Shown here piece by piece: positions 479-30,788 of a stretch of DNA of 55,472 bases (positions are counted from its first letter, which is position 1; the number at the start of each line of letters is the position of its first letter). The notes beneath the pieces were generated by a model. The model searched no databases and was not told the DNA's origin. It was given only the letters and a program-made list of their open reading frames with translations. The stretch is from a virus. The DNA is taken from the IMG/VR virus record IMGVR_UViG_3300046535_001010, positions 1 through 55,472 of that record; one strand, written 5' to 3'. Position numbers and translations under genes: made by a program.

Positions 479-483
479 TTGTA

Positions 484-742: not shown

Positions 743-743
743 A

Positions 744-5533: not shown

Positions 5534-5534
5534 C

Positions 5535-6062: not shown

Positions 6063-6063
6063 C

Positions 6064-6470: not shown

Positions 6471-6471
6471 A

Positions 6472-10096: not shown

Positions 10097-10281
10097 TCTT
10101 CGGCGGCGCCGCCTTCGCGTCGGTCGAATACGGCGGCCTGATCGATTCCGGGACCTCCAAGGCAGTACCGCCATCACGGCTACGTACGATCAAGTTGAGC
10201 CAGGAGCTTCGCGATTTTACCGTGTCGCAGGACCGGCGTGTGACCAAGGTAAGTCCGCAGCGCAAAGAGTTTCCGCAATGA
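10093..10281 (+). CDS. Small conserved phage structural protein
   Basis: A 62-residue protein read from GTG 10093, overlapping the previous stop by 4 bases; an ATG further upstream would overlap by 37 bases and is less likely. Its second half (TIKLSQELRDFTVSQDRRVT, then KVSPQRKEF) is a strand-rich segment reminiscent of small proteins beside fibre-tail adaptors. The next gene starts in its stop (ATGA). Function unknown. Confidence 0.6.
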   Translation: MIFGGAAFASVEYGGLIDSGTSKAVPPSRLRTIKLSQELRDFTVSQDRRVTKVSPQRKEFPQ

Positions 10282-10595
10282 AGCAGACCATCCTAAAAAC
10301 ACCGTACTCGCGGCTCGATTTCACTCTCGATTGGACACCCTGGATCGGCGAGGATACCATCGACAGGGCTGAGTGGGCGGTGACCGGAGGTTTAGTCACG
10401 GATGGCGCAGGCGTCGACGCGACCCTCAAAAAGGCCATCATCTGGTTAAAGGGCGGCACGCTGGGCGTCAAAGACGCTACGGCTACCTGCCACATCTGGA
10501 CCGCGTTAGGCCGCGAGGACGAGCGCATCCTGTGGTTCTCCATCGTGAGCGAGATCCCTGTGAGCAGCAACCAGGGCGACTGCCAGCCGAACTAA
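10278..10595 (+). CDS. Fibre-tail adaptor-like protein
   Basis: A 105-residue protein with the pattern SRLDFTLDW, W-x-VTGGLV, V/I-WLxxG, GREDERILWFSIV. This fits the small beta-sandwich domain annotated in tailed phages as fibre-tail adaptor. A clearly homologous copy forms the N-terminus of the repeat fibre at 22330-25035 (roughly 60% identical by eye). It probably docks fibre proteins encoded just downstream. Overlaps the upstream gene by ATGA. Confidence 0.7.
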   Translation: MKQTILKTPYSRLDFTLDWTPWIGEDTIDRAEWAVTGGLVTDGAGVDATLKKAIIWLKGGTLGVKDATATCHIWTALGREDERILWFSIVSEIPVSSNQGDCQPN

Positions 10596-10607: not shown

Positions 10608-11690
10608 ATGAAGCTACTCCTCCTTTTGCTGCTTATCGGGTGGCCGGCCTTTCCAGTGACCGTGCTGCGGATGACGGCGGGGGGCAAGGGCGGGATCGAC
10701 GCGCAGGGGAATACCTGGATCGCTGACGCGAACTTCAAAGGCGGCGCCGCTTGGACGTCTGCCAACCAGGCCAACATGGCAACGCTGCCGCTCGAGTACC
10801 GGACTCTCCGCTATTCCGCTTATCCTTCCGGGGCGCCGTTTTCCTACGGCATTCCGATGGCGAACGGATCGTACACGCTGGTCTTGAAGTTTGCGGAGCC
10901 GAACAAGACGGCCGCCGGGCAGAGGATCTTCTCCGTCTCGGTCAATGGGACGATCGTCATCAATAACCTCGATTTGGTGGTCACCGCCGGGACGATGAAG
11001 CCCTATGACGTGATGATTCCCGTCACCGCGGTCAACGGCATGATCAACCTGGTCTTCACTCCGCTGACCAACACGATGAACGCAGTGGTGTCGGCGATCC
11101 AGATCGACAACGTACCGCTGAAGATCACCAAGCGAACGAGTTGCGAGATCCCGGTGAGCACGACCAGCGCCACAGTCTACAGCACATGGGGCTGCTGGAA
11201 CATGGAAGGCGTTCCCTACACGGTCCTCTCGCTGCGCTGCGCCAGCGACGCGCCTAACACGATCGTGGAGGTGATGCTGCCGGACTACGCCTCGACCGCT
11301 GTCCCTAAACCACTCAAACGGTTGGGCGAGGCGATGGTGTGCAATATGCCGCCTGAACCGGTCATTCCTACTCCGCTGTCGGGCGTGACGTATCCGGACG
11401 GCGACTTCCTGCAGATCTTCATCCGAGTGTCCGAACAGGCCGCTGGCGTGAGCACGGCAAGACAGGTGGTTGTGGTCGCGCAGATGGAGTTCGAAACAGG
11501 ACCTGCCGTCAACCCTGTGGGGCCAAGGTTGGTGGCGCTGGACACCTGCACGGGTAGCGGACCAACGTGGGACTGCGCGCAGATGCTTCGCGCGAGAGTG
11601 GCCAGGGTGGATGGCTCGCAGCTTGAGATGTTCGGAGTAACGCTGCCTATCTCGCCCACTGTGGGCCTGACCTGGACGCCGGTGAAGTAA
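10608..11690 (+). CDS. Secreted malectin-domain protein
   Basis: A 360-residue protein with a Sec signal peptide (MKLLLLLLLIGWPAFP, ~1-17). Residues ~20-170 read as a malectin-like carbohydrate-binding domain: NTWIADANFKGG, YTLVLKFAEP, GQRIFSVSVNGT, NLDLVVTAG. The rest is beta-rich with several Cys (TSCEIP, WGCWN, LRCAS, DTCTG, DCAQ), consistent with a disulfide-containing extracytoplasmic domain. It starts 13 bases after the adaptor gene, with AAGGAAACGAAG upstream of the ATG. Presence of a signal peptide in a virion operon is unusual; see findings. Confidence 0.7.
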   Translation: MKLLLLLLLIGWPAFPVTVLRMTAGGKGGIDAQGNTWIADANFKGGAAWTSANQANMATLPLEYRTLRYSAYPSGAPFSYGIPMANGSYTLVLKFAEPNKTAAGQRIFSVSVNGTIVINNLDLVVTAGTMKPYDVMIPVTAVNGMINLVFTPLTNTMNAVVSAIQIDNVPLKITKRTSCEIPVSTTSATVYSTWGCWNMEGVPYTVLSLRCASDAPNTIVEVMLPDYASTAVPKPLKRLGEAMVCNMPPEPVIPTPLSGVTYPDGDFLQIFIRVSEQAAGVSTARQVVVVAQMEFETGPAVNPVGPRLVALDTCTGSGPTWDCAQMLRARVARVDGSQLEMFGVTLPISPTVGLTWTPVK

Positions 11691-11694
11691 TCAC

Positions 11695-14184
11695 ATGCCA
11701 ATCGACAACATCAAAAATTTCGCCAAGGGCCGAGTACTAGGGAGTGCCAGCGCTCAAGCCGATAGCGTAACTTTGGTGTCTGGCGACGGCGCGCGCTTTC
11801 CGGCAGCGCCTTTCAATGCGGTTTGGTGGAACGCAAAGGCCTTCCCGGACCCGTCTGACGATCCCAGCCGCGAGATCGTGCGGGTAACGGCGATCAACGG
11901 CGACGTATTCAGTATCCTGCGTGCCCAGGAAGGCACCGCCGCGACCGCCAAGGACTCGCCTGGAGCGTCCTACAGGCTGATCGCCGGCCTGACCACCAAG
12001 ACGGTCTACGACCTGGTGGCAGAAGGATCGTCCGGGACATCAGGTTCGTCTGGAACATCAGGCATAGGCCAGTCGGGCACTTCCGGAACCAGCGGACTGG
12101 CCGGATCTTCCGGCACGTCAGGCTCCGGAACGGGCGGAAGCGGTTCGTCGGGGACTAGTGGAACGTCTGGGATAGGTCAGCCGGGCACCTCTGGCACCAG
12201 CGGCGTGTCGGGCTCCGGAACGGGTGGGAGCGGCTCGTCGGGCACGAGTGGGACTTCCGGCCTCGGATCGAGTGGTTCATCCGGCACCTCGGGCACAACC
12301 GGAACGTCTGGCACGTCGGCCTCCGGATCGGCAGGTACAAGCGGGACGTCTGGCGCGGCTGGCAGCAGTGGCGTCAACGGGACGAACGGCAGTGCGGGCA
12401 CTCACGGAAGCAATGGGACTTCCGGAGTCAACGGCACCTCGGGCGTCAACGGTACGTCAGGGACGTCCGCGACGAACGGATCCAGCGGGACCAGCGGCAA
12501 CGGCACATCGGGAACCAGCGGAGTTGGCACCTCGGGCACTAGTGGCTTAACGGGAACCTCGGGAACCAATGCCGCTGGCTTCACCTCGGGCACGAGCGGT
12601 ACCAGCGGGCAAACCGGAAGCTCGGGACAGACTGGAACCTCGGGAACTTCCGGGACTAACGCGGCAGGCTTCTCTTCTGGGACCTCGGGGACCTCGGGCA
12701 TCAGCGGCACGAGCGGCACCTCTGGCATTAATGGGACTTCGGGCATCAACGGAACGAGCGGCGTCAACGGCACATCGGGCACTTCCGGCATCAATGGAAC
12801 GTCAGGGGTCAACGGGACCAGTGGCACGGCTGGAACCAGCGGAGTTGGGACCAGCGGGACTTCGGGAGTAAACGGGAGTTCGGGCACCAGCGGCATCAAC
12901 GGCACTTCAGGGGTCAATGGCACCAGCGGCACCAATGGCTCGGCGGGAACCAGCGGGGTGGGCACTAACGGCACCTCGGGCGTAAACGGCACGTCGGGCG
13001 TCAACGGCACCAGCGGGACCGCTGGAACTTCCGGCGTCGGCACCTCGGGCGTAAACGGCACGTCGGGCACGAGCGGTGTCAACGGAACCTCAGGAATCAA
13101 CGGCACGAACGGCAGCGCTGGGACGCATGGCAGTAACGGCACGAGCGGCGTTAATGGAACCTCGGGCGTCAATGGGACCTCGGGCACTTCCGGCGTTGGA
13201 TCCAGTGGCTCATCCGGCACCTCCGGGGTCGGCGGCGGGACCGGGGGGACCTCTGGAACCTCGGGAGTAACGGGCACCTCCGGGACCGCTGGAACGACAG
13301 GAACGTTATACCCATGGAAGGGGCAATGGGGGACGTCTGCCTATGTCGTCAATGACTGCGTTGGCCGTTCAGGTTCTGGCTATGTGTGCATCACACCGAA
13401 CACTGGTGGGGCACAAGATCCTGCGGTAGCTCCTACTTATTGGAGTCTGCTTGTACAAAGTGGCTCCTCGGGCACCTCTGGGGCCAGTGGCAGCTCTGGA
13501 GCAGCTGGGACAAGTGGAACGTCTGCGGCCGGCACGAACGGCACTTCGGGTACGTCGGGCATTGGAACCAACGGGACCAGCGGCGCGGCCGGGACTTCTG
13601 GAACGACGGGCACGTCCGGAGTCAATGGCACGTCTGGAGTCAATGGGACTTCTGGCGTCAATGGCACGTCTGGAACGACTGGCACGAGCGGGACGACCGG
13701 GACCTCGGGAACGACCGGCAATGGCACCAGCGGGACGGCCGGGACCTCCGGGACCTCCGCCAACGCCACTATGACGCTCAACCCGTCTCCTGGATCCGAT
13801 AACACCGTATCCGGGCTCGCTGGAGCGTTCACCTCCGCACAGGCGCAGGCGATCGGTGACGTCTGCCGCATCGACGCCGCCTCTAAGATGACGCTGGCAA
13901 AGGCTGACGCAATCGCCAACGCCTGGGGCCTGGCGATCGTGGCCGACGCATCGATCAGCAGCGGGGCTTCCGGGAATTACCTGTTCCTTGGCATGATTCG
14001 CCACGATGCCTGGAACTGGACCTTGAATACGCCGATCTACCTGTCGGCTACCGGAACGACCGGGAACACCTTGACGCAGACATCTCCGTCTGGAGCAAAC
14101 AATGTGATTCAGATTGTAGGCTGGCCCGTCACCGCGGATGTCATGATGTTCACTCCACAGCTGGTCCAGGTGGAGCACGTATAA
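11695..14184 (+). CDS. Collagen-like Gly-Thr-Ser repeat tail fibre
   Basis: An 829-residue protein without signal peptide. Residues ~1-110 are a phage-fibre N-terminal domain ([39 protein letters not shown]). Residues ~111-535 and ~590-690 are Gly-X-Y triplets dominated by GTS, GSS, GVN and GIN with almost no proline. Between them (~538-588) sits a carbohydrate-binding-like module ([26 protein letters not shown]) resembling CBM5/12. Residues ~692-829 form a C-terminal head domain ending in [10 protein letters not shown]. Such repeats form trimeric shafts in other phages. I count about 27 Asn-Gly-Thr sequons. It may be the substrate of the glycosyltransferase at 27420. Confidence 0.85.
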
Positions 14185-14187
14185 CAA

Positions 14188-14958
14188 ATGGCGCTCGCTT
14201 ACACGTTCAGGGCAGCAATCTTCAGTACGACCGCTGCGACTGCCTACGCGACGACTTCCACCTATCAGCCTGCGGCTAACTCTCTGTTGATCGCCTTCGT
14301 GGTGGGGTGCTCCACGACCGTGGTGGACCCGGACGGTGCAACGCCGTTCGCCGGGCACGGATTGACATGGACCAAGGTGACGTTGACGGCCAATGACCTT
14401 TCTACCACCCATGCCACGTCTGTTTGGGTAGCTAATTCCGGCGGGTCTTCCTCAACAGCAGCGTGCACGGCCACCTGGGGATCAAGCCGTACCGGCGGCG
14501 TGGTGGTTGAATTTGAAGTTACGGGATGGGATACCAACTTGACTGCTGCGCAGGCAATTCTGCAGAATCCCACGGCGACCGGAACGGGAACCAGTAGCAG
14601 CATCACCGCTTTGGTGCAGAAGAAGGCAGGGTCTAGAGTAATTGCCTTCAACCTGCACTTGGCGAATGAAGCGACTACCCCGAAGGCCTCTCCTGCCTGG
14701 ACGGAGACGGCAGGGGCAGACGGCAACTTCAACTCTCCTACAACCGGAGCTGAAGTGGAGTTTTTAAACAGTGCTTTCGATGGCTCCCCTACGGCCTCCT
14801 GGAGCACTAGTTCTCTATGGAGGATGGTCGCTTTGGAAGTTGCTGCTGCCAACGTAGCGATGAGCAAGGTGGCAGGGCTGACGCGCAACCTGATGGACGA
14901 CACCGCGCGCGTCCAGAACGCGGCAATCGCGAAGATCAGCGGGGTGACGAATCCGTGA
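14188..14958 (+). CDS. Hypothetical beta-rich fibre-associated protein
   Basis: A 256-residue, Thr/Ser/Ala-rich protein starting directly after the repeat fibre. The pattern of alternating strands (SLLIAFVVGC, GGVVVEFEVTGW, SRVIAFNLHLAN, WRMVALEV) suggests a jelly-roll or Ig-like sandwich. A similar strand pattern occurs in the secreted protein at 15957. No signal peptide. Probably an accessory fibre or surface protein; family not recognised. Confidence 0.6.
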   Translation: MALAYTFRAAIFSTTAATAYATTSTYQPAANSLLIAFVVGCSTTVVDPDGATPFAGHGLTWTKVTLTANDLSTTHATSVWVANSGGSSSTAACTATWGSSRTGGVVVEFEVTGWDTNLTAAQAILQNPTATGTGTSSSITALVQKKAGSRVIAFNLHLANEATTPKASPAWTETAGADGNFNSPTTGAEVEFLNSAFDGSPTASWSTSSLWRMVALEVAAANVAMSKVAGLTRNLMDDTARVQNAAIAKISGVTNP

Positions 14959-14968
14959 GGAGATCCAT

Positions 14969-15955
14969 ATGAAATATGTAGTCTGTTTACTCGCAGTAAC
15001 GGCCATCTTTGGGCAATCCAAGTTAGACATGACCAGGGGAGCTACCCCTGCCAATCCTTCCGGTTCCGTAACGCGATTACACGTCAACTCGACAACAGGG
15101 AAACTGACCTGCCAGGATTCCACAGGAGTCGTCCCGTGCGTGGGAACGGTAGTTACCACGGGATCTCCAACAACGGGAGCCTTGGTCACCGTATCCGGGG
15201 CTACCTCAATCCAAACACCGTCCTCAACCGCTGTGATGGATAGCAGCGGGAACGTCAGTACCCCGGGCAGCATCACAACGGGATCGGGTGGATCGACCGC
15301 AGGGTATCTACAGCTGGGTCAAGGAACTGCCCCCACGGCTGGAACGACGGCAGTCACCATTTACAGCAGTACCTCGGTCACCTCGTACATCATGAGATTG
15401 CCGGCCACAGCGACCACAGGATTTTATTTAGGCACGAACACTTCAGGTGACGTCGTGATGTCGCAGGTCGGATCAACCGGCAGCGGGAATGTGGTGCTGG
15501 CCACAGGACCCACGCTGTCGGCTCCGATACTCGGCACGCCCGCCAGTGGAGACGCCACAAACCTAACCAATATTCCGGTAGCTAATGCGAAAGCAGGGTC
15601 ACTCCTTCCGGTGGTGAATATGGCGCCTTCCACTCTGGGTTCGGGGACCAGCGTATCCTTGACCGCGCCGAGGCAATATTACGTCTGCACCAACACGTGC
15701 ACCGTGACTCCACCGGTTCCGGCCGCCGGATACGAATTCTGCGTACGCAATGGAAACAACACAGCGACCGTTATTACGCTGGCCGCGCTCGGATCATCCG
15801 CACGTTACGAGAACACGGCCAATACTGCATATGGAACAACGGGGACTGGCACGCTAGTATCCGCAGGCGCGGTCGGAGACAAGATTTGCATCGTTGGACT
15901 CGATGGGACGCACTACCTGACCCTCTCCTACGTAGGAACCTGGACGGCGAATTGA
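14969..15955 (+). CDS. Secreted fibre-like protein
   Basis: A 328-residue protein with a signal peptide (MKYVVCLLAVTAIFG-QS) and a good ribosome site (GAGGAG) before ATG 14969. Residues ~165-200 hold the motif GNVVLATGPTLSAPILGTPASG with DATNLTNIP, a signature of phage tail-fibre repeats. The C-terminal part has paired Cys (CTNTC, CVRN, KICIVG) and a strand-rich fold. The mix of a fibre motif and an export signal is odd. Function: probably surface attachment, by motif only. Confidence 0.65.
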   Translation: MKYVVCLLAVTAIFGQSKLDMTRGATPANPSGSVTRLHVNSTTGKLTCQDSTGVVPCVGTVVTTGSPTTGALVTVSGATSIQTPSSTAVMDSSGNVSTPGSITTGSGGSTAGYLQLGQGTAPTAGTTAVTIYSSTSVTSYIMRLPATATTGFYLGTNTSGDVVMSQVGSTGSGNVVLATGPTLSAPILGTPASGDATNLTNIPVANAKAGSLLPVVNMAPSTLGSGTSVSLTAPRQYYVCTNTCTVTPPVPAAGYEFCVRNGNNTATVITLAALGSSARYENTANTAYGTTGTGTLVSAGAVGDKICIVGLDGTHYLTLSYVGTWTAN

Positions 15956-15956
15956 G

Positions 15957-16691
15957 ATGAAACTGGCAATCCTATTTCTTATTCCGTTGGCTGTTTGGTC
16001 CCAGGGACTACTCGGGATCGTCGGCGACGCGCGGCATGGAGGACCGGTATTTGTTTCTCCAGTCGTCAGCCAGACGTTTATGAACGTGAGCGATCTCATT
16101 TTCCCAGCAGTCACAACGACCACTGGGAACACTCTGGTCGTTGTCATCGGGATCAACAGCGGTTGCGCTGGATTTACGCCATTGACCGTAGTCAGCACGA
16201 TCGGAGGTTCGGCCAGCGGTGACTCGTTCGTCCAAATTGGATCTTGGGTAACCCAAGCCTTTTCCTGCGTCGGAGCTTTTAGAGCGGATAACGTTCATGC
16301 CGGTGCCGGAAACTATGTGGTAACTGCCACGGTGACGGCGGGGTCGATCATGGGGATGGTGCTGCAGTTCTCTGGTTTGTCAGCGTCCTCCCTCGATCAG
16401 ACTTGCTCTGGCTCGGCCGCATCGGGCAGCCCTGGCACCTGTAGCTCGGCAATGACGCCCACCTCATCCCCACAAATCATCGTGGGAGGCCTGTTGAACT
16501 ACTACGAGGCCGACACTATTACGGCGGGATCGGGGTACATCCTGCCAACCGGAGCGACCGTAATACCCGGAGGAGAGGGCAAACTTGTAGCGATTTATCA
16601 GATTGCCAATCCGGCCAGTGGGACCTACAACCCGGCGTTCACAATCGTGGGTACTCAGTACTGGAGCATGATCGGATTCACGCTGAAATAA
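15957..16691 (+). CDS. Secreted beta-sandwich protein
   Basis: A 244-residue protein with signal peptide MKLAILFLIPLAVWS-QG. The mature part is strand-rich (NTLVVVIGINSGC, VGAFRADNV, YVVTATVTAG, GMVLQFSGLS, QIIVGGLLNYYE, YWSMIGFTLK), resembling bacterial jelly-roll proteins with unknown ligands and similar in layout to the protein at 14188. It begins two bases after the previous stop. No catalytic motif seen. Confidence 0.6.
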   Translation: MKLAILFLIPLAVWSQGLLGIVGDARHGGPVFVSPVVSQTFMNVSDLIFPAVTTTTGNTLVVVIGINSGCAGFTPLTVVSTIGGSASGDSFVQIGSWVTQAFSCVGAFRADNVHAGAGNYVVTATVTAGSIMGMVLQFSGLSASSLDQTCSGSAASGSPGTCSSAMTPTSSPQIIVGGLLNYYEADTITAGSGYILPTGATVIPGGEGKLVAIYQIANPASGTYNPAFTIVGTQYWSMIGFTLK

Positions 16692-16695
16692 GCCT

Positions 16696-19170
16696 ATGAA
16701 ACTCACCTTAGCCCTGCTCATCTCCTGCTCCGCATTCGCAGCGATTGGGGATCACGCGCCGCCTGTTCCGGCAACCTACGTAGCCTCGCATCCTCGCCTT
16801 GGATCGCCGTCGACCACGTACCTCGATGCGATCTGGGCGGCCCGGCCTACGGCATATGGTGGAACGAATGGTGCCGCCCGCATTTGGACATCAGCAGACG
16901 CCTTCAATGGGGCCTCGCCGGCGGCTAACAAGACCGGCGCAGTAGATGCCCGATACCTCCTAATGGCTTACTTGTCGGAAGCGCGGAACAGCGGTCCGCG
17001 CGCGTCAACGTACCTCGGCAAGATCCAGACACTGGCCACCCACGTCGATTCGATGGGCACGTGGTGGGGTGGATGGACCGCGGCGCTGGCTTACGATTGG
17101 ACCTATTCCACGATAGGCGCCACGGCGCAGGGCAATTACCGCTCACGCATGTACACCATGATGACCGCGTTTGAGTCCGCGGAAACTGGATTCTCGCCCT
17201 ACAACGACCAGTTCTACATTACCGGCTCGGTTCAGACTCCACATCTGATTCTGGCCCTCGCGATCTACCCGGATGACGCGGCGACATCCAGACCCCACTG
17301 GAACTGGTCAGCGGACATGTTTCTAAACTACATGCTCCCGGTGTGGCGCCAAGTGATCGGGGGCGGCGGAGGCTGCTCCATAGGAGATTCCGATACCAAT
17401 CACGGCGGCGGCTGGCACGAGGAATGGGTCTATCAAAATAATTTGAACACTGACCTCGGCATGATCCACTGGTTCGCGCCGTATGGCCTGGCTTGGATGA
17501 ATGCAATCGGCGACAGCGCCTTCTTCACCCGGGAATGCTGGTTCAAAAATTATTCCTATTACACGATGTACATGGTGCGTCCTGACTGGAGGATGGACCT
17601 GATCGGCCAGACCGCCTTCGGGCTGCCTGATGGGGAGTTCGGGACCAGCGGGCTGCAGACCCCTGCCTCACTTTCTTTATTGGGTGAGATCTACGATGAT
17701 CCGACGATTCGGGGCTGGGCCCGCACTTTCAACCGGACGGGGACTCCGGATGGATTTGAGCCTTCCGGATGGCCTTGGTACGCGCCAGACACGAATTCTA
17801 AGAGCACCAATACAAGAAGCTCGCTTTCTAAGGTACGTAACTTTCCGGGTTGGGGAACCATCTTTTTCCGAAACGGGTGGGGAGAAGACAACGCCTTCTG
17901 CTGGCTGCGCTACGGCGATAATTTCTGGAGTCATCCAGTTCAGGACGCAGGAACGTGGGCCTGCTTTAATCGCGGGGAACTGGCCCTCCGATCCGGATCG
18001 TACCGCGTGGGGACCGGGGCCGACCACCAAAAGATCTGGCTCAACAGCGTGATCTCAGGCAACGCTCTAACGGTTACGGACAGCGCGGACACTTTCACCG
18101 AGGAGACGGTGCAGACTAACGACCCGGTGAATGGGCTGCGCGATCTCGTTCTACCGAATGAGGGAGGCCAGCGGCGTGTGGGATCCGACGTGTCGAACCT
18201 GGGCGGCGAGATGCAACAAGCCACCAACGTCCCCTTAGACCTTGCTATGTGGAATCGTAGCCACGAGCTGTATCAGGGCGGAACGCTGATCGCCTTCGTA
18301 TCAAAAACAGCTTACACGTACGCAGCAGTGGACATCACGAGAACCTACAATAACCCCTACAGCGCAGGAGCGCATACAACCAGCCGAGCACTGCGCGAAT
18401 CCAACTCGATCAACCGAACGATGCGCGTCTCGAAAGTGATCAGGCACTTATTTTTCATCCCTAGGCCGCAGGGCGTATGGGTGGTGATCTACGATCAGGT
18501 GACCTCGGTCAACACGGCGTTCACCAAAAAGAATATCGTTCACTTTGTGAATTCTCCGACCGTCTCTTCCTATTCCGGAGGTACGAAGTGGACGGCAACC
18601 AGAACCGAAACCGTCACTGGAATTTCAAACGGAACGGACTGGCCGTACCCTTTCATCTCTGGCAATCTCGGATACATCACGCATAACTCAGGCAATTTTC
18701 AGTATGTTTACGACGGGAAAACTTACGGCTGGATGACCTTGCCGGTGAGCGGGACGATCACCACGATTGGGGGATCGGGGAGCGAATTCAAAATCGGTTC
18801 GACCAACTACAACAACTGTTTGAGCACCACCTATTGCGCCTCCCCGGAAATGTCGGATGCGCTAATCGTACCGAATGCGGCGAACTGGACCAGCGGATTT
18901 GGGTCTTACCGATTTGAGCAGGCGCCGGCCTCGGCCGCTTTGGAAGATTGGTTTTTGAACCTGATGCTGTTTACCAATTCCAGCGACACCAACGTTCCGA
19001 GCACCGAGCCTGCGACAACCTTAACCAGCGGCAACTTTGTCACAGTGTTCAAGGAAAACGCCAATAAGTGCACCACGACGATTTCGTTACCTAAATACGG
19101 GTTGGGTCCGGTCATCACCAGAACCGAAACCACTGGCGGCGATTGTACGGCGTCGGGCGGCGTGATATGA
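16696..19170 (+). CDS. Secreted heparinase II/III-like polysaccharide lyase
   Basis: An 824-residue protein with signal peptide MKLTLALLISCSAFA. The N-terminal half (~60-340) is helical and Trp-rich (WWGGWTAALAYDW, GWHEEWVYQNN, GLAWMNAIGD), as in alpha/alpha-toroid lyases. Residues ~385-450 carry the heparinase II/III-like pattern: FFRNGWGEDNAFCWLRYGD, WSHPVQDAG, RGELALRSGSY, DHQ. The C-terminal half is a beta-sandwich. It would cleave acidic polysaccharide outside the cytoplasm, a depolymerase role that fits phage entry or release. The lyase call rests on motifs and architecture; substrate unknown. The next gene overlaps by ATGA. Confidence 0.65.
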   Translation: MKLTLALLISCSAFAAIGDHAPPVPATYVASHPRLGSPSTTYLDAIWAARPTAYGGTNGAARIWTSADAFNGASPAANKTGAVDARYLLMAYLSEARNSGPRASTYLGKIQTLATHVDSMGTWWGGWTAALAYDWTYSTIGATAQGNYRSRMYTMMTAFESAETGFSPYNDQFYITGSVQTPHLILALAIYPDDAATSRPHWNWSADMFLNYMLPVWRQVIGGGGGCSIGDSDTNHGGGWHEEWVYQNNLNTDLGMIHWFAPYGLAWMNAIGDSAFFTRECWFKNYSYYTMYMVRPDWRMDLIGQTAFGLPDGEFGTSGLQTPASLSLLGEIYDDPTIRGWARTFNRTGTPDGFEPSGWPWYAPDTNSKSTNTRSSLSKVRNFPGWGTIFFRNGWGEDNAFCWLRYGDNFWSHPVQDAGTWACFNRGELALRSGSYRVGTGADHQKIWLNSVISGNALTVTDSADTFTEETVQTNDPVNGLRDLVLPNEGGQRRVGSDVSNLGGEMQQATNVPLDLAMWNRSHELYQGGTLIAFVSKTAYTYAAVDITRTYNNPYSAGAHTTSRALRESNSINRTMRVSKVIRHLFFIPRPQGVWVVIYDQVTSVNTAFTKKNIVHFVNSPTVSSYSGGTKWTATRTETVTGISNGTDWPYPFISGNLGYITHNSGNFQYVYDGKTYGWMTLPVSGTITTIGGSGSEFKIGSTNYNNCLSTTYCASPEMSDALIVPNAANWTSGFGSYRFEQAPASAALEDWFLNLMLFTNSSDTNVPSTEPATTLTSGNFVTVFKENANKCTTTISLPKYGLGPVITRTETTGGDCTASGGVI

Positions 19171-22010: not shown

Positions 22011-22012
22011 AG

Positions 22013-22333
22013 ATGATCTTTACATCCAAAGCCGACGGGAACTGGAATGCATCAGGGCAGACCACCTGGAATGAAGTTGGGACCCCAGGGGATGGCGACA
22101 CCGTCTCTATTTCTCATGCCGTGACCGTAACGGCGGATGCCACTGTCGGGACAGGCTTTGGCTTTGGTGTCACCGTCCTATCCGCTGGAACGTTGGCCAT
22201 AAATGCCGGCATTGTGTTGACCGTGAACGGCAGTGTGGACAATCAAGGCTCGATCGTCATCGGCGACGGCGGCGATTTGGTAATCAACGAACTCGCTTTC
22301 GTTAGCCCGTTACCGACCTTCTTCTTACAATGA
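22013..22333 (+). CDS. G8-like beta-helix protein
   Basis: A 106-residue protein with the pattern GNWNASGQTTWNEVGTPGDGDTV, then stacked short strands (VTVTADATVG, TLAINAGIVLTVNG, NQGSIVIGDGGDLVI). This is typical of G8-type or single-stranded beta-helix domains. No signal peptide. It starts three bases after the Kelch gene and overlaps the next gene by ATGA, so it is probably a fibre-associated module. Confidence 0.6.
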   Translation: MIFTSKADGNWNASGQTTWNEVGTPGDGDTVSISHAVTVTADATVGTGFGFGVTVLSAGTLAINAGIVLTVNGSVDNQGSIVIGDGGDLVINELAFVSPLPTFFLQ

Positions 22334-25035
22334 CGCCCATCCTGAAGACGCCGTACTCGCGGCTCGACTTCACCCTTGACTGGACGTCATGGATGGCGGC
22401 CGGCGACGCCATCGTGCAGGTGGCTTGGACAGTGACGGGCGGCCTGGTCAACGACGGTGAGGAGATCGACGCGAGCGGCAAAAAGGCAACGGTCTGGCTC
22501 ACGGCCGGAGCGTTGGGAGTGAAGGACGCTACGGCGACCTGTCATATCTGGACGGCACTCGGCCGCGAGGACGAACGTATTCTATGGTTCTCCATCGTCA
22601 GTAAGTTGCCTGTGACGGTGGTGGGCAAGGAAGGGATCTGCGGCAACGTGCTCGCCACGAGTTCCGGCGAGGGCAGTTCCGGCACCGGATCTGGCTCCAG
22701 CGGGACCTCGGGCACGAGCGGTATTGGGACGTCGGGATTAAGGGGCAGTTCCGGCACTTCAGGTTCGTCTGGCAAGTCTCTCGGGACCAGTGGCACCTCG
22801 GGGTTCACTGGAACGAGCGGCACCGCTGGAACCTCGGGCAGTTCGAGCACCTCCGGCACCTCGGGAAGCTCTGGCGTGGGGACCCACGGAACGTCGGGCA
22901 GCAGTGGGAGTTCGGGCAGCAGTGGAACGTCTGGAATCAATGGGACGTCGGGAACGGCCGGAACCAGCGGAAGCTCTGGCTCCAGTGGAACTTCGGGCAT
23001 CCACGGGACCTCGGGGACCTCTGGATCGAGCGGGACCTCGGGCAGCACAGGCGCCGGCCTCGCCCCGGGCGGTTCGTCCGGGTACATGCTGGTCAAGAAT
23101 TCCGACACCAGCTACGACACGATCTGGCAGCTTCAACCGATCGTAGTCCCGCCGCCAACGGATACGATCCTGATCGCGGGAGGCATCGTCGTTTGGGTTA
23201 CCGGGTACACCTTCTCGGTTTCGACCACGACCTACCGCATTCTGGGCACGCTTTATAATTCGGACCTGACCAGCGTCACCCTGGCCGCGCCGGATGCCAC
23301 CCTGGACCGGATCGACGTGATCGCCGTCGACGACACGGGACATGTGATCGTGGTTCAGGGCACTCTGAATGCGACGCCGGTGCGGCCCGCGGTCGATCCC
23401 GCGCATCAGCTGGCCCTGACCTTCGTCCTGGTCACACACGCGACCACCCAGCCGGTCGGTACTTCCAGCGCCCTGATTTACGATGAGGGCGTCGAGTGGA
23501 CGGCGAGTTCTTCGGGATCCGGGTGGACGCTCAACTCGACCAACAACCCCTACCAGGGGACCAAGGACGTCGAGGCTACAGCGGTGGCCAAGGGCGCCTT
23601 CGTGCAGTTCCAGGCCGGCGCGCCGGTGAATCTGGCGCTGTACGCCAACCTGGTCTTCTACATCCGCTCGAAGGCGGCGTGGGCGAACCAGCGCTACCTG
23701 ACGCTGACCTGGCAGAATGCCGGCACTCCTCTTGGGACCTCGGTCACCCTGAAGGATGGAAACTTCACGTTCAGCAGCTCGCAGACGGCGACCTATCAGC
23801 AGATCGTCATTCAGCTTTCGCAGTTCGCTCCAATCGTTGGGACCGTCAATCAACTGCGCGTCGCCGTTGGCGGCGGCGGCGGGTCAGCCACCATCGGCTT
23901 CTACCTGGACAATATCCTGCTCCAGACCGGTGTGGCGCCACCGCCTGTCTCGGGGAGTTCGGGAACCTCCGGGACTTCGGGGGCGGCCGGGACCTCGGGC
24001 ACGACCGGAAGCTCTGGAACGACTGCCATCGGAAGCTCCGGGACGTCAGGCACCTCGGCTGCCGGAAGCTCTGGTTCTGCAGGAACCAGCGGGACGTCGG
24101 GCATTGGGACGTCTGGCATTAATGGCACCTCGGGGCTGAATGGAAGCAGTGGAACCAGCGGCCTCACTGGGAGCTCAGGAACCAGCGGCCAGTCGGGCAC
24201 ATCTGGCACGTCTGGAGTTGGTAGCAGCGGCACATCCGGGATCAACGGCACGTCGGGAACCTCCGGAACGCGAGGCAGCAATGGCACGAGCGGCGTCAAC
24301 GGGACGTCCGGCATCAACGGAACCTCGGGGACATCGGGCAGTGGCACTTCCGGCGTAAGCGGTAGTTCCGGCGTAAGCGGCAGTTCGGGAACCTCCAGTG
24401 TGGGTACTTCGGGAACCTCTGGAACTTCGGGCGTAAACGGCACCTCAGGCATCAATGGGACCAGCGGACTGAATGGCTCGTCTGGCAGCAGCGGACTAAG
24501 TGGAAGTTCGGGCACTTCCGGGATTGACGGATCATCGGGCACGAGCGGCAACGGCACGAGCGGCACTTCCGGAGTCAACGGCACAAGCGGGGTCAACGGC
24601 AGTTCGGGCACCAGTGGAACGTCTGGCGGTCCGGGCACCAGTGGAACATCGGGCGGCGGGACTAGCGGAACGTCAGGGATAGGTGTAGTTCACGGCTTTG
24701 GAACGTCCTTCGACGGCGGTGGTGTCGCGTTGGCCTCTGGGCTTACTGGGTATGTCAAGGTCCCTTCAGGCGGCACGATACAAGCCTGGAGCATCCTGGT
24801 CGATACCGGGACCTGTACTATCAAGGTGTGGAAGATCGCAGCCGGCACAGCGATTCCCACGGCGTCTAACTCGATCAACACGAGCGGGGTTTCCATCAGC
24901 ACCGGCACGGCGATCCGCAGCACTACATTGACCGACTTCACGACGACAACCATTGCCAATGGAGACATTGTGGGAATTCATATTCAGGCGGTGTCGGGGG
25001 CAACACAGATCAATTTCCAGGTAGAGGTGGCGTAA
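22330..25035 (+). CDS. Adaptor-fused Gly-Thr-Ser repeat tail fibre
   Basis: A 901-residue protein. Residues ~1-100 are a second copy of the fibre-tail adaptor domain found alone at 10278-10595. Residues ~112-245 and ~538-785 are GTS/GSS/GVN triplet repeats (about ten Asn-Gly-Thr sequons). Between them is a ~290-residue beta-rich region with two parts (IDVIAVDDTGHVIVVQG; NPYQGTKDVEATAVAKGAF to FYLDNILLQ, a carbohydrate-binding jelly-roll pattern). The C-terminal ~115 residues are a strand-rich knob (TCTIKVWKIAAGTAIPT). The architecture suggests a side fibre that carries its own docking domain. Confidence 0.8.
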   Translation: MTPILKTPYSRLDFTLDWTSWMAAGDAIVQVAWTVTGGLVNDGEEIDASGKKATVWLTAGALGVKDATATCHIWTALGREDERILWFSIVSKLPVTVVGKEGICGNVLATSSGEGSSGTGSGSSGTSGTSGIGTSGLRGSSGTSGSSGKSLGTSGTSGFTGTSGTAGTSGSSSTSGTSGSSGVGTHGTSGSSGSSGSSGTSGINGTSGTAGTSGSSGSSGTSGIHGTSGTSGSSGTSGSTGAGLAPGGSSGYMLVKNSDTSYDTIWQLQPIVVPPPTDTILIAGGIVVWVTGYTFSVSTTTYRILGTLYNSDLTSVTLAAPDATLDRIDVIAVDDTGHVIVVQGTLNATPVRPAVDPAHQLALTFVLVTHATTQPVGTSSALIYDEGVEWTASSSGSGWTLNSTNNPYQGTKDVEATAVAKGAFVQFQAGAPVNLALYANLVFYIRSKAAWANQRYLTLTWQNAGTPLGTSVTLKDGNFTFSSSQTATYQQIVIQLSQFAPIVGTVNQLRVAVGGGGGSATIGFYLDNILLQTGVAPPPVSGSSGTSGTSGAAGTSGTTGSSGTTAIGSSGTSGTSAAGSSGSAGTSGTSGIGTSGINGTSGLNGSSGTSGLTGSSGTSGQSGTSGTSGVGSSGTSGINGTSGTSGTRGSNGTSGVNGTSGINGTSGTSGSGTSGVSGSSGVSGSSGTSSVGTSGTSGTSGVNGTSGINGTSGLNGSSGSSGLSGSSGTSGIDGSSGTSGNGTSGTSGVNGTSGVNGSSGTSGTSGGPGTSGTSGGGTSGTSGIGVVHGFGTSFDGGGVALASGLTGYVKVPSGGTIQAWSILVDTGTCTIKVWKIAAGTAIPTASNSINTSGVSISTGTAIRSTTLTDFTTTTIANGDIVGIHIQAVSGATQINFQVEVA

Positions 25036-26037
25036 ATGGCGATTCTTTGGGCAGGCGGCGAGGACTTTGATTTTCCCAATGGAGTAGTAGCATGGCATGT
25101 CCTTCAGTCCGGCACGTTTCGATCAGCATACGCCCGATGCGCGGTTTGGACATCTTCTCCGGTAGGCGCGTTCGTCAAATCCACCGTTTTCCCTGGCGGG
25201 GGAGTTACTTCTGCCTGGTTGTCCTGCATCGTAGGCAAAGGCGGTATCAACAATACAGAGCTTGCGAACACCTTTCTGATCGGTCTTGGAAAGTCCGGGA
25301 CCAATAAAGGCATTTTCATCGGCTACACAGCGTTCGGACAATTGACCATCTATTCGTATAACGGTTCTACCTCCACTTCGCTTGCTGCCGAGGGCTCGCT
25401 CACTGGATACATGCTCGGCAACTCGTTCAATAGGTTGGACGTTCAAATATCCAACTTCAATGGAACCGGGTCAGTCAGTGTCTATTGGAATGGCGCGTTC
25501 GTTGTGACCTATTCCGGCAGTCTGACGATCTCAGGCATCACAGATCTGGATAGCGTGTTCTTTTCCGCTACCAACGGTACTGGTTATCAGCAGTTCTCGG
25601 AAATCATTGTTGCGGATGAGGACACGCGCGCCTTCACGGGTCTCATGACGATGGTCCCCACGGGCGCAGGCACTACGGATGACTGGATCGGCGCCTATAC
25701 GGATGTGAATGAACGCGAGATCGACAACTCCACCTCCGTTTATACGGACACGGTTTCGCAAGATGAGCAGTTCAATCTAACGGATCTTCCATCGGGCTCA
25801 TTTGGCATTCGAGCCGTCGTGGCCACAGCAAAGGTTACCAGCACGGCAGGAGCTACGGCTACCAAGGTCGCGCTGGGCTTCAAATCTGGAGGTTCAGTTG
25901 CGGTCGGCACCTCACAGTCTACGACTACTGCTTGGGAAACCAAGCATCAGATCTTCGCGCAAAATCCGGTGACCAGTGCGGATTGGGCGCAATCCGATAT
26001 GAACGCCCTTCAGATCGATTTGAGATCGGGATCTTAA
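25036..26037 (+). CDS. LamG/concanavalin-like fibre protein, copy 1
   Basis: A 333-residue protein starting at the base after the fibre stop. It shares the start ILWAGGEDFDFPNG, a lectin-like sandwich (SVSVYWNGAFVVTYSGS), the block IIVADEDTRAF, GAGTTDDW and SQDEQFNLTDLPSG with the next gene, so the two are tandem paralogues of equal length. Concanavalin/LamG-like domains bind sugars. No signal peptide; probably a virion surface protein. Confidence 0.65.
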   Translation: MAILWAGGEDFDFPNGVVAWHVLQSGTFRSAYARCAVWTSSPVGAFVKSTVFPGGGVTSAWLSCIVGKGGINNTELANTFLIGLGKSGTNKGIFIGYTAFGQLTIYSYNGSTSTSLAAEGSLTGYMLGNSFNRLDVQISNFNGTGSVSVYWNGAFVVTYSGSLTISGITDLDSVFFSATNGTGYQQFSEIIVADEDTRAFTGLMTMVPTGAGTTDDWIGAYTDVNEREIDNSTSVYTDTVSQDEQFNLTDLPSGSFGIRAVVATAKVTSTAGATATKVALGFKSGGSVAVGTSQSTTTAWETKHQIFAQNPVTSADWAQSDMNALQIDLRSGS

Positions 26038-26041
26038 CGTA

Positions 26042-27043
26042 ATGAGCATACTTTGGTGCGGCGGCGAGGACATTGACTTTCCCAATGGAAACCCTCCGAT
26101 CGTAACTTCTACCGGTGGCGGGTTCCGGGCTGGCTACGCCCGCTGTGGTCTGATCCCCAATATCAGCGCGTCGCAATCGGCCACATTCGCAGGCGGTGCC
26201 GTAACCTCCTGCTGGCTTTCGTTTCGTGAATGGTGGGAAGTCAACGGCAGCAACCTTGGCGCATCCACGAAAATCATTGGGCTTACCAAAAGCGGGACTT
26301 CCGGTTCCGGGATCTGGCTTTCCAGCCCTGCGGCCGGAGGTAACCGTCTTGCGATCTGCAAGTACGACGGCTCAACCCGTACGGAACTCGTCGTGGAATC
26401 CGGCTTCAGCTATCCTCATGGGACACTCCTCCGCTTCGATATCCAGGTGATCAGTTACGGTGCCTCAGGCACGGTCAATGTGTACCTGAATGGCGTTTTG
26501 GTTGTCACCTACACCGGGAACATTGCTGTATCCGGCGTTTCCGATTTGGATAGGATTTGGCTTTTAGGAGGTCACGATCCTGCTTATGGAGGCGGCTTTT
26601 CTGAAATCATCGTCGCAGATGAAGACACCCGCGCCTTCCCCGGATTGGTCACCTTGGCTTTAACGGGCGCCGGCACTACAGACGATTGGACGGGAGCTTA
26701 TACGCAGATCAACGGAACGGTGATCAGCGACGCCAGCCCCGTTTACGTCAACACCAACAATAAGGATGAGCAATTCAACGTGACCGATCTGCCTTCCGGC
26801 GCCTTTCGGATAAAGGCCGTCAAACTGGCCGCCCGCGCGGCCGTCTCTTCCTCGGGCGCGACGCCTACCAAGATCGCTCTTGGGTACAATTCAGGCGGCA
26901 CGGTAGCGGTTGAAGCGGATCAGACGCTGACCACGGCTTACGACACCTACGAATCTATAAGTCAGGTGAATCCCGTCACCAGCGCGGAGTTTGTACAGAG
27001 CGACATGAACGCCTTGCAGATCAATGTGAGATCCAAGGCGTAA
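26042..27043 (+). CDS. LamG/concanavalin-like fibre protein, copy 2
   Basis: A 333-residue paralogue of the preceding protein, starting ILWCGGEDIDFPNG and keeping IIVADEDTRAF, GAGTTDDWTGAY, DEQFNVTDLPSG and the ending QSDMNALQI. The N-terminal ~120 residues differ most, which is where ligand contacts would be expected if this is a receptor-binding sandwich. It may give the virion two related binding specificities. Confidence 0.65.
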   Translation: MSILWCGGEDIDFPNGNPPIVTSTGGGFRAGYARCGLIPNISASQSATFAGGAVTSCWLSFREWWEVNGSNLGASTKIIGLTKSGTSGSGIWLSSPAAGGNRLAICKYDGSTRTELVVESGFSYPHGTLLRFDIQVISYGASGTVNVYLNGVLVVTYTGNIAVSGVSDLDRIWLLGGHDPAYGGGFSEIIVADEDTRAFPGLVTLALTGAGTTDDWTGAYTQINGTVISDASPVYVNTNNKDEQFNVTDLPSGAFRIKAVKLAARAAVSSSGATPTKIALGYNSGGTVAVEADQTLTTAYDTYESISQVNPVTSAEFVQSDMNALQINVRSKA

Positions 27044-27049
27044 GCCTCC

Positions 27050-27412
27050 ATGATTCAGACGGGCGTCAATATAACAAAGGCAGTAGCCTACGCAGTTCTC
27101 GCCCCACTGAAGGGAGTCGATGCCACAAAGGTTGTCGGCTACGCTGCACTCGCCCCTCTTCCAGGCGTCAACGTCATAAAGGCTGTCGGCTACGCTGTCC
27201 TGTGGCGGCCTGGCATCTTTGTTTCAAAGGTCAACGCGTACGCGGTACTCACACCGAAACTTGGAGTGGATGTTTCCAAGGTGAACGTCTATGCCGTGCT
27301 GATCCCTAAGCCCGGCGTGAGCGTTTCCAAGGTGAACGTGTACACGGTGCTCGGTACGGGATCGGCTAGAATTCGCTCCTATCTATTCGGTGATGGTTGG
27401 AACTACAAATAG
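27050..27412 (+). CDS. Six-repeat KxxxYAVL fibre protein
   Basis: A 120-residue protein made of six ~17-18-residue repeats with consensus GV-x-V-SK-V-x-x-YAVL-x-P-x, for example GVDVSKVNVYAVLIPKP. It ends in RIRSYLFGDGWNYK. Similar KVxxYAVL units occur in phage fibre proteins. The stop lies 7 bases before the start chosen for the glycosyltransferase gene, so they are probably one transcript. Confidence 0.65.
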   Translation: MIQTGVNITKAVAYAVLAPLKGVDATKVVGYAALAPLPGVNVIKAVGYAVLWRPGIFVSKVNAYAVLTPKLGVDVSKVNVYAVLIPKPGVSVSKVNVYTVLGTGSARIRSYLFGDGWNYK

Positions 27413-27419
27413 GTTTACA

Positions 27420-30400
27420 ATGAGCGGGATGGTACACAATCAGATCAGACTCAGCTTCTTCGATGGCGTACGCGTGGACATCGTGCCGGTTGCGGCCTCT
27501 GGTCTGCATGGCAACGCGTTGAAGCATGCCCGGGAAGCAACCTACCTCGTGCGTTTCCTGAATGCGGAGAACGATCTGCTGGTCTATTCCACCACGGTAG
27601 CCCCTGGATGCTTCGCCGCTCCGTTTCCCAAGTACTTCATCAAATGGCGGGTGATCGTCGAGGAGAACGGTGTCGTCGTATTCGACGAAACTCTCGATTT
27701 GGCAGGCAAAAAGGTCTACATCCAGTTGGACTCCAAGGCGCTGGGCGACACGATCGCCTGGTTCCCTTACGCCGAGGAGTTCCGCAAGAAGCACCAATGC
27801 GAGGTTCACGTCGGCACGTTCCACCAGGAGCTGTTCGCGTCGACCTACCCGAACCTGACCGTGCGCGGCCCGGGCGCCGCCGAGGCCGAAGGCTTCTATG
27901 CGGCCTACATCGTCGGGACGTGCGACAACGACTACAACCGGAACAAAAATAACTGGCGGCTGATCCCGCTGCAGCAGACAGCAACGGATATTCTCGGTCT
28001 TCCCATGACGGAGATCCGCGCCCGGATCGCGCGCCCGACAGATCCGGCGCCCGTGGCCGATAAGTACGTGGCCATCGCGGAGTTCTCTACCTTCGACGCC
28101 AAGGAGTGGCTGCATCCCGGCGGCTGGCAGGCGGTGCTCGAGTACCTCAAGAGCAAGGGCTACGCCATCGTGTCGGTCAGCAAGGAACAGACCCGCCTTG
28201 CCAATCTGTTCCCCCTGGGGATCATCTCCCGGAATGACCGGAGCCTGAGCGAGACGATCAACAATATCCAGCACGCCGAATTCTTCATTGGCGTCGCGTC
28301 GGGATGCTCCTGGCTGGCCTGGGCCCTGGAAGTCCCCACCGTGATCATCTCCGGGTTCACCGAGCCATACAGCGAGATGACGGACTGCTACCGCGTCATC
28401 AACAAGAGCGTCTGTACAGGCTGCTACAACGACAAGGAACTGGCCTTCGACCGCGGCAACCGAAAATGGTGCCCGCGCAACAAGAACATGGAGTGCTCAA
28501 CGTCGATCACCCCGGCGATGGTCACCAGCGCGATCGACCGGCTGCTGCGCGACAGGAGCGAGGGCAAGAAGGCCGTCACACCGTCCGGACACAACAAAGT
28601 CCTCTTCCTGCTGCCGCACTGCTCGACTGGCGGGATGCCGGAATACGCCTACCAGTGCGTCAAAGGCCTGGTAGACGCCGGCGTCGCCGTCGCGGTGGCC
28701 GAGTGGCAGGACGTCGCGCCGATGTTCGACGTGCAGAAACGGCGTATCCGGAGCATCGCGCCCGTCCATACGCTCAACGGGGATTGGCGCAACCTGCAGC
28801 GACTGATCGAGGACTTCGCTCCCGACGTGGTGCACCTGCAGGAGTTCGCCGAGACCTTCCTGCCGGACGAAGCGGCCGTGTGGCTGTTCCGGAACCACCG
28901 CCCTTACCGTCTCATCGAGACGACCCACGGGCGTGAGGTGATCCAGCCTAACAGCAAGCGCTGGCTTCCGAACGCCTTCGCTTTCGCTAACCAATACCAC
29001 GTCGAGCAGTACAATCACCTGCCGATTCCGGCGTACGTGGTCGACATCCAACTGCCTAAGCGGGTGCGGCCGGACCGCGTCGAGGCGTTGGGCAGGCTGG
29101 GACTGGATCCCGGGCGCCGGCACGTACTCAATGTCGGCCTGTTCACTCCCGGCAAGAACCAGAAGCAGATCTTCGAGATCGCGCGAAAGCTTTCGGACCT
29201 GACCTTCCATTTCGTCGGCAACCAGGCCGGCAACTTCGCCGCCTACTGGGAGCCGCTGATGGCCCAAAAGCCGGACAACTGCATCGTGTGGGGCGAGCGC
29301 AGCGACGTGGACCAGTTCTATGCGTCGATGGACCTGTTCCTGTTCACTTCGACCCTGGAGTTTAACCCGATCGTGATCAAAGAGGCGCTGTCCTGGCAGA
29401 TGCCGGTGATCATGCGCGATCTGGAGACGTATTGCGGCGCCTACGAGTTGAACCCTCTGGTGACGTTCTTCGACGACGATGACGATCTGGCCGGGCTGGT
29501 GCGAGATCTCTTGCCGACCGTAGGAAGCCAACTGGAGGAGGCTTATTGCTTCAGTACGGAGCCGCCGCAGGAGCCTGTCGAGCGTGTGGTCATCACCGAC
29601 CGCAAAGACATCGGCGGCTGGTTCGACGAGGCCAACCGCAGGGTCTTGGATGAGCTGATCAAGCGCCATAACATCAAGAGCGTAATCGAGATCGGCTCCT
29701 TCCTTGGGCAGTCGGCCGCCTGGTTTGCCGAGCGTGTTGACAAGGTTACCTGCGTCGACACCTGGTTTGAGGCTGCCGAGCGCGGCGACCGCAACAACCT
29801 GGTTGATTCGCTCAGCTACTTCGGAGTGGGCCGCGACTTCTTCGCCAAGTTCGTCGAGAACATGAAGGGCTGCGGCGCCTGGCCCAAGATCACGGTCGTG
29901 CGCGGCGATTCCCAGGAAGTCGCTCACAAGGTCGGTGAGGCTGATCTGGTCTACGTCGACGCGAACCACACCAAGGAAGGCTGCGCCGGCGACGTCAAGC
30001 TGTACCTGCCCAAGGCCCGCAAGATCATCTGCGGCGACGATTACACGGTTCGGCCTGAGTTCGGTGTGATCGAGGCGGTCAGCGAACTGCTGCCGCGCCA
30101 CAAGTTCGACGGGCCTTTCTGGTGGGACTACGCGCCACGCGTGGCGGTCGTGATCCCCAACAAGAACTACGGGAAGTGGCTGGGACGGGCGATCCGGTCC
30201 GCGCAGGTCCAGACGATTCCTCCGGTCGCCGTGATCGTGGTCGACGGCATGTCCACGGACAATTCTGAGCAGGTGGCGCGGCGGATGGGAGCCACATGGC
30301 TGGAGTATGCCACCGGGAGAATGGGCGCTGCCAAAAACATAGGCATCGATTACGCCGAAGGCGAGGCCGACTTCATCGTCACGCTGGACGCCGACGATTG

Positions 30401-30788
30401 GATCGAGCCCAGCTTCATCGAACGCTCGATCGAGCAGATGCAGGGCAAGGATATCGTAGCCACCCAGATGCGCCTGCAGAACGGGGATATCTGGATGCCG
30501 GCGCCGCCGTTCACCATTGAGCGGTTTGTCGACCGCAATCTGATCTTCACGACTTCCATGTTCCGGATGTCCTTGTGGGGCAAGCTCGGCGGCTTCTGCG
30601 AGGACCCGGAATGCTACGAGGACTGGGACTTCTGGCTGCGCGCGGTGCTTGGCGGCGCAGCGATCGGACTCGTCAACGAGCCGCTATTCAACCACATGGA
30701 GCATGACGCTTCCAGTTGCGCGACCATGACCGCGGAGATGGACAGCCTCTACCGCGAGAAGATTCGAGCAGTCGGCGCCAGGGGATAA
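27420..30788 (+). CDS. Four-domain heptosyltransferase-GT4-methyltransferase-GT2 fusion
   Basis: A 1122-residue protein from ATG 27420; an in-frame ATG at 27390 would add 10 residues inside the previous gene. Domain 1 (~1-380) resembles TibC/BAHT autotransporter heptosyltransferases: VYIQLDSKALGDTIAWFPYAEEF, ATDILGLP, and four cysteines C332-x2-C335-x15-C351-x7-C359 like the metal-binding finger of that family. Domain 2 (~390-705) is GT4-like (STGGMPEYAYQC, NVGLFTPGKNQ, VWGERSDVDQFYASMDLFLF, ALSWQMPV). Domain 3 (~740-885) is a class I methyltransferase (VIEIGSFLGQSAAWFAE, VTCVDTW, ADLVYVDANHT). Domain 4 (~905-1122) is GT2/GT-A (VAVVIPNKNYGKWL, VVDGMSTDNS, TLDADDW). It likely builds a methylated glycan on a phage protein; the Thr/Ser fibres upstream are candidates. 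Confidence 0.8.
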   Translation: MSGMVHNQIRLSFFDGVRVDIVPVAASGLHGNALKHAREATYLVRFLNAENDLLVYSTTVAPGCFAAPFPKYFIKWRVIVEENGVVVFDETLDLAGKKVYIQLDSKALGDTIAWFPYAEEFRKKHQCEVHVGTFHQELFASTYPNLTVRGPGAAEAEGFYAAYIVGTCDNDYNRNKNNWRLIPLQQTATDILGLPMTEIRARIARPTDPAPVADKYVAIAEFSTFDAKEWLHPGGWQAVLEYLKSKGYAIVSVSKEQTRLANLFPLGIISRNDRSLSETINNIQHAEFFIGVASGCSWLAWALEVPTVIISGFTEPYSEMTDCYRVINKSVCTGCYNDKELAFDRGNRKWCPRNKNMECSTSITPAMVTSAIDRLLRDRSEGKKAVTPSGHNKVLFLLPHCSTGGMPEYAYQCVKGLVDAGVAVAVAEWQDVAPMFDVQKRRIRSIAPVHTLNGDWRNLQRLIEDFAPDVVHLQEFAETFLPDEAAVWLFRNHRPYRLIETTHGREVIQPNSKRWLPNAFAFANQYHVEQYNHLPIPAYVVDIQLPKRVRPDRVEALGRLGLDPGRRHVLNVGLFTPGKNQKQIFEIARKLSDLTFHFVGNQAGNFAAYWEPLMAQKPDNCIVWGERSDVDQFYASMDLFLFTSTLEFNPIVIKEALSWQMPVIMRDLETYCGAYELNPLVTFFDDDDDLAGLVRDLLPTVGSQLEEAYCFSTEPPQEPVERVVITDRKDIGGWFDEANRRVLDELIKRHNIKSVIEIGSFLGQSAAWFAERVDKVTCVDTWFEAAERGDRNNLVDSLSYFGVGRDFFAKFVENMKGCGAWPKITVVRGDSQEVAHKVGEADLVYVDANHTKEGCAGDVKLYLPKARKIICGDDYTVRPEFGVIEAVSELLPRHKFDGPFWWDYAPRVAVVIPNKNYGKWLGRAIRSAQVQTIPPVAVIVVDGMSTDNSEQVARRMGATWLEYATGRMGAAKNIGIDYAEGEADFIVTLDADDWIEPSFIERSIEQMQGKDIVATQMRLQNGDIWMPAPPFTIERFVDRNLIFTTSMFRMSLWGKLGGFCEDPECYEDWDFWLRAVLGGAAIGLVNEPLFNHMEHDASSCATMTAEMDSLYREKIRAVGARG

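Follow-up and report, generated by a model that had tools for sequence, protein, structure and literature searches.

A candidate fibre O-glycosylation module beside collagen-like tail fibres in a virus genome

Does a phage that encodes repeat-rich tail fibres next to a multidomain transferase glycosylate its own fibres? The question is raised by the IMG/VR virus record IMGVR_UViG_3300046535_001010, analysed here over its whole length of 55,472 nucleotides (hereafter the window), in which the myovirus genes for tail sheath, terminase, portal and head protease accompany a block holding two collagen-like fibre genes and a four-domain transferase fusion. The block is read here as encoding two collagen-like tail fibres together with a dedicated fibre-glycosylating enzyme, which would first place heptose on Ser and then extend the glycan; the rough probability given to this reading is 0.6.

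Two collagen-like fibres

Fibre 1 (11695..14184, + strand; 829 residues) is a proposed acceptor that matches the Pfam collagen family PF01391 (E=3.7e-41) and PHROG tail fibre 5073 (E=1e-45), with an almost identical copy in L052 (L numbers designate the compared sequences). Its Gly-X-Y region (12025..13725, +) contains 142 triplets, among them 68 GTS, 16 GVN and 14 GSS, and is interrupted by a non-collagen insert at residues 538–588. Fibre 2, the other proposed acceptor (22330..25035, +; 901 residues; PF01391, E=1.3e-30), shows an N-terminal fibre-tail adaptor (residues 6–84; PF23148 Gp77, E=1.3e-16), two Gly-X-Y blocks located by triplet count (22726..23058 and 23953..24660, both +) and a C-terminal domain. 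Both open reading frames (ORFs) match phage tail-fibre families, and the Gp77 adaptor at the start of fibre 2 fits a role in the virion. At 9978-10595 the window has another adaptor-like domain of Gp77 type, which shares 69% identity with the beginning of fibre 2. Antisense ORFs of PEVPLVP type (12402-13277, 13437-13919 and 23901-24638, all on the − strand) mirror the Gly-Thr-Ser repeats and are not genes.

The repeats are of the collagen-like Gly-X-Y type, which may form a triple helix in the virion. In-phase triplets in runs of at least four number 142 in fibre 1 and 98 in fibre 2, compared with 5.9 and 1.3 in residue shuffles (maxima of 23 and 9), and PF01391 scores above its gathering threshold in both. 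Proline occurs in only 1 of the 142 and 1 of the 98 triplets, in agreement with the first-pass annotation, which had placed two proline-poor repeat fibres at these positions.

The same annotation had counted about 27 and 10 Asn-Gly-Thr motifs, and these counts are exact (all N-x-S/T sequons amount to 34 and 17). In a Gly-X-Y chain such a motif arises automatically wherever Asn at Y precedes the fixed Gly and Thr occupies the following X, and the sequons appear mostly to reflect this triplet grammar. Fibre 1 holds 28 NG[ST] motifs against 19.7 (s.d. 2.2) in a triplet shuffle, a modest excess that is due to duplicated GVN-GTS hexapeptides, and fibre 2 holds 12 against 8.9 (s.d. 1.5).

The transferase fusion and its phage relatives

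The fusion (27390..30788, +; 1,132 residues) begins with a GTG at 27390 that overlaps the upstream gene, in-frame ATG codons at 27393, 27420 and 27429 providing alternative starts. It comprises a BAHT domain (residues 49–384; 27534..28541, +), a GT4 domain of the PHxSTGGxPQ type (residues 414–708; 28629..29513, +; PF00534/PF13439 and an alignment of phage relatives), a methyltransferase domain (Methyltransf_24, residues 766–878; 29685..30023, +; PF13578, E=4.9e-11) and a GT2 domain (residues 915–1085; 30132..30644, +; PF00535, E=4.8e-19).

The BAHT domain scores 282.4 bits against TIGR04414 (hepto_Aah_TibC; cut-off 200), and its best relative of solved structure is TibC (4rap, E=7e-59). Lipopolysaccharide (LPS) heptosyltransferase models reach 28 bits or less on the same domain, and an LPS heptosyltransferase identity was rejected on this score. 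Seven other phage members obtain 274–336 bits with TIGR04414, for which 200 is an equivalog cut-off. Following the residue roles described for TibC (PMC4358343), the catalytic base Asp120 (TibC Asp110) and the sugar-site residues Thr234, Lys238 and Trp308 (Thr226, Lys230 and Trp305) are conserved in the window, and the iron-finger cysteines C342, C345, C361 and C369 (28413..28496, +) align with TibC C339/C342/C358/C370. The Asp, Lys and Trp are kept in all 41 phage BAHT homologues and the four cysteines in 40 of them. Together these features strongly indicate that the first domain is a member of the BAHT protein O-heptosyltransferase family, with a predicted heptosyltransferase activity.

The Pfam and NCBIfam hits of the fusion comprise GT9/BAHT, GT4, GT2 and methyltransferase only, with no N-glycosyltransferase domain and no GtfA/GtfB-type model among them. 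The likeness to serine-rich-repeat adhesin loci drawn by the first-pass annotation was therefore abandoned, as the fusion lacks a GtfA/GtfB-type pair and the repeats are collagen triplets. Its proposal of dense hydroxyl and sequon acceptors beside a modifying enzyme survives in its first half: a protein-glycosylating family lies by hydroxyl-rich fibres, an arrangement that recurs in diverse phages. The sequon half is not supported: no enzyme domain in the fusion matches it, and published site mapping for TibC and Aah gave Ser and not even Thr (PMC4358343).

BAHT relatives are present in 50 IMG/VR contigs and in 4 of 50,697 INPHARED phages, one of the four being cultured, Microcystis phage Mel-JY01 (PP395634, L068). 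In Mel-JY01 (L068 1-3052), a + strand collagen-like ORF that extends past the start of the record is annotated as an antisense coding sequence (739-2298) plus a C-terminal piece (2519-3052), so that the fibre was overlooked; the Gly-X-Y frame spans 2-3049 and the fusion of this phage 4750-8430. A tree separates 53 phage BAHTs from 29 bacterial ones, including TibC, with a branch support of 100/100. The bacterial sequences were drawn by similarity to the window, and the phage proteins appear to form a phage-only branch that wider bacterial sampling could change. No Gly-X-Y gene stands beside BAHT at any of 30 bacterial BAHT loci; bacterial members also adjoin surface-protein genes, and L153 is a phage contig inside a bacterial assembly. 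A scan with the GT2 domain gave no matches.

A gene order recurs among the phages, in which a collagen-like fibre and then one or two small genes precede GT4a, GT4b and BAHT, with a short fibre-like gene, an 83-residue gene and the tail sheath behind them, the series from fibre through GT4a, GT4b and BAHT to sheath being on one strand in many contigs. The same order is found in a sheath-anchored sample picked without regard to BAHT or collagen. BAHT is carried by 79 of 80 phage GT4a loci, 77 of them with the two fused or within 19 bases; the GT4 domain of the window fusion is this conserved partner. In L034 and L035 the fibre upstream of the cassette bears GGGxNTASG repeats resembling YadA head motifs, and in L035 one long frame carries both these repeats and Gly-X-Y. 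Near some GT4a–BAHT pairs where collagen is absent lie poly-Thr or Thr-Pro-rich mucin-like proteins (L462:5949-7268, L475:211-897, L471:5770-7875).

A further sample was picked solely for Thr/Ser-rich Gly-X-Y genes; of its 46 contigs that reach 30 kb, 19 carry BAHT. Among those longer than 80 kb, the distance from BAHT to the fibre picked is below 10 kb in 6 of 9 cases (1.6 expected, P=1e-3), or in 8 of 9 when the contigs are taken as circular (P=4e-6). Among complete or large genomes, collagen accompanies 9 of 10 with BAHT and 2 of 16 without (P=1.6e-4; 8 of 10 and P=1e-3 on a conservative count), a comparison that is indicative, its two sets having been gathered differently and from different hosts. 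The composition of the repeats follows the enzyme as well: Ser takes 24–81% of X and Y positions in most fibres accompanied by BAHT versus 1–10% in all but one BAHT-less Gly-X-Y gene, where for short contigs BAHT-less refers to the interval between collagen gene and sheath rather than to the whole genome. A rank test on Ser share gives P=2e-5, or 1e-3 after lineages are collapsed by hand, which is the only treatment of relatedness.

Acceptor, mechanism and rival explanations

From what is observed, namely the type of repeat, the family of the enzyme, the conservation of its active-site residues and the recurrent neighbourhood, we infer an acceptor, a donor, an order of steps and possible effects on the virion. 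The BAHT domain would act in the cytoplasm, ahead of virion assembly, and transfer activated heptose, probably ADP-heptose supplied by the host, to Ser residues of the Gly-X-Y repeats. Lengthening of the glycan would then fall to the fused GT4 and GT2 domains, and a cap may be added by the methyltransferase. The resulting virion would bear sugar-coated, proline-free collagen-like stalks, whose glycans may stiffen them, shield them from proteases or tune adsorption.

Several observations weigh against this proposal. The adenine contact Arg286 of TibC, treated here as a donor contact and not as a family-defining residue, is Thr in the window and Arg in 25 of 41 phage homologues, which weakens the donor assignment. 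Heptose-activation genes were not noticed in the window, and a search with TIGR02199 gave no hit over the cut-off in any of 35 BAHT-containing records. Composition and enzyme also part company in places: L202 is Ser-rich (46%) and lacks BAHT in its fibre-to-sheath interval, L044-L046 combine BAHT with a Ser-poor, Gln-rich collagen, and the sample of Thr/Ser-rich Gly-X-Y genes holds many Ser-rich members in contigs without BAHT, although this sample, chosen for composition, is unusable for the Ser comparison. Of its 46 contigs counted above, 27 lack BAHT; they are fragments. A gp23-anchored sample shows no association, collagen being found in 3 of 8 contigs with BAHT versus 16 of 37 without. 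This null result was set aside because many of the contigs in that sample end inside the collagen gene. Metagenome contigs often do so (L075, L076, L086, L088, L104 and others), which biases co-occurrence tests on fragments. Finally, a Gly-X-Y gene is in reach at 23 of 80 GT4a loci, and 56 of 79 sampled GT4a–BAHT loci have none, which means that collagen-like proteins cannot be the substrate everywhere; these loci belong mostly to one large freshwater lineage (L414-L476 type) with a non-Gly-X-Y fibre of 2,000–2,800 residues. The joint occurrence of repeats and transferase, suggested by the first-pass annotation as a check across related phages, gives a mixed outcome. Genes near Gly-X-Y genes in BAHT-less contigs include two matches to PF11397 (N-acetylglucosamine), four to GT2 and two to FkbM methyltransferase, possible alternative fibre-modifying enzymes.

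What the module glycosylates could be another virion protein, for example a giant fibre, a baseplate protein or one with poly-Thr, and the collagen-like fibres would then be mere neighbours in a fibre island. This appears unlikely, even though the giant-fibre lineage, with poly-Thr neighbours in some members, has GT4a–BAHT beside its fibre, and in the window two further proteins, each of 333 residues, separate fibre 2 from the fusion. Ser-rich Gly-X-Y genes adjoin the module directly in several separate lineages, and the fibres of BAHT-less genomes are mostly Ser-poor, which favours the collagen-like fibres themselves as the likely acceptors. That an enzyme of phage or host N-glycosylates the Asn-Gly-Thr sequons, for which their number and the modest excess in fibre 1 could be invoked, is hardly credible given the domain content of the fusion, the origin of the motif in Y-position Asn ahead of a fixed Gly, and an Asn content that ranges from 1 to 26% in the repeats of BAHT-accompanied fibres.

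Remodelling of host LPS or O-antigen during infection, with exclusion of competing phages, is the published proposal for the similar host-recognition islands of pelagimyophages (PMC7029224), and LPS pathways commonly employ GT4 and GT2 domains. For the window it is judged decidedly unlikely: the first domain belongs by score to a protein-modifying family and keeps the iron finger of TibC, and the module sits among late structural genes beside fibres. The transferase might also be unrelated cargo next to ordinary, unglycosylated fibres. Collagen-like phage fibres are indeed common, also without BAHT. Portal and head protease flank the block, and the distance between them is about 21 kb in the window versus about 6 kb in L060, the single relative compared, which makes a variable island probable. 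The proximity of fibre and BAHT in large contigs is, however, well above chance and the gene order recurs, which makes this coincidence very unlikely. As the first-pass annotation had noted, the fusion closes the block; an 85-residue ORF and the head protease follow. The block further contains a malectin-domain protein (10608-11690), possibly a sugar-binding part of the virion, and a product weakly similar to the heparin lyase HepB (16696-19170), possibly a virion depolymerase.

In the giant-fibre lineage, a freshwater T4-like one, diverged HldE-like genes for heptose-1-P adenylyltransferase and heptose-7-P kinase often come directly after BAHT (L429:13308-14439; same position in L442, L460 and L424). 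Their best-matching families are rfaE domain II and I, at scores well below the curated cut-offs, and both types are present in 20 loci. They possibly constitute a phage-borne sugar-donor pathway and support heptose as the donor for that lineage, though not directly for the window. The chances seem evenly balanced that the phage-only BAHT branch, obligately paired with one GT4 type, constitutes a widespread virion-fibre O-glycosylation module of aquatic phages, huge ones included, to which some add HldE-like donor genes and whose steps are all united in a single polypeptide in the window. If so, many aquatic phages would make glycoprotein tail fibres through a family known so far from bacterial virulence autotransporters, and their receptor-binding fibres would carry a phage-directed sugar coat invisible to sequence-based host prediction. 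What glycosyltransferases do in the host-recognition islands of phages, at present interpreted as LPS modification, would become directly testable, and proline-poor collagen stalks stabilised by sugars would be of structural interest. The sole match in the open-access literature on phage O-heptosyltransferases concerns, in the portion available, Cronobacter under amino-acid deficiency.

Comparison with known systems

The closest known enzymes are TibC and Aah of E. coli, which share with the window the family, by curated hidden Markov model and PDB match, the catalytic Asp, Thr, Lys and Trp, and the four iron-finger cysteines. The window protein differs in belonging to the phage-only branch, in its fusion to GT4, methyltransferase and GT2 domains and in the replacement of Arg286 by Thr. 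The known members of the family have an autotransporter β-helix as neighbour or substrate, whereas the window has collagen-like fibres and other fibre-block proteins as neighbours; as no autotransporter is among them, the role of autotransporter heptosyltransferase is not claimed.

Mimivirus, a giant virus of amoebae, differs from the window in its hydroxylysine-linked glucose and in an unrelated enzyme. It resembles the window in encoding both collagen-like proteins and a collagen-glycosylating enzyme, according to the available portion of PMC9546862. Sugars on phage virion proteins, as proposed here, have been described in mycobacteriophages (Freeman et al. 2023, via PMC12619734), where they reside on the C-termini of capsid and tail-tube subunits, the accessible part of that source describing neither BAHT nor collagen fibres. 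Pelagimyophage host-recognition islands likewise hold tail fibres and glycosyltransferases in a variable region, with collagen repeats among the structural proteins, but in the accessible part of PMC7029224 the authors infer a change of host O-antigen and propose no protein glycosyltransferase. SgtA of C. difficile is a GT-A O-GlcNAc transferase from another enzyme family, acting mainly on Thr of a spore protein (PMC7157674). Its gene nonetheless lies directly beside that of the collagen-like surface protein BclA3, whose Gly-Pro-Thr repeats it glycosylates (PMC7157674), a gene arrangement like that of the window.
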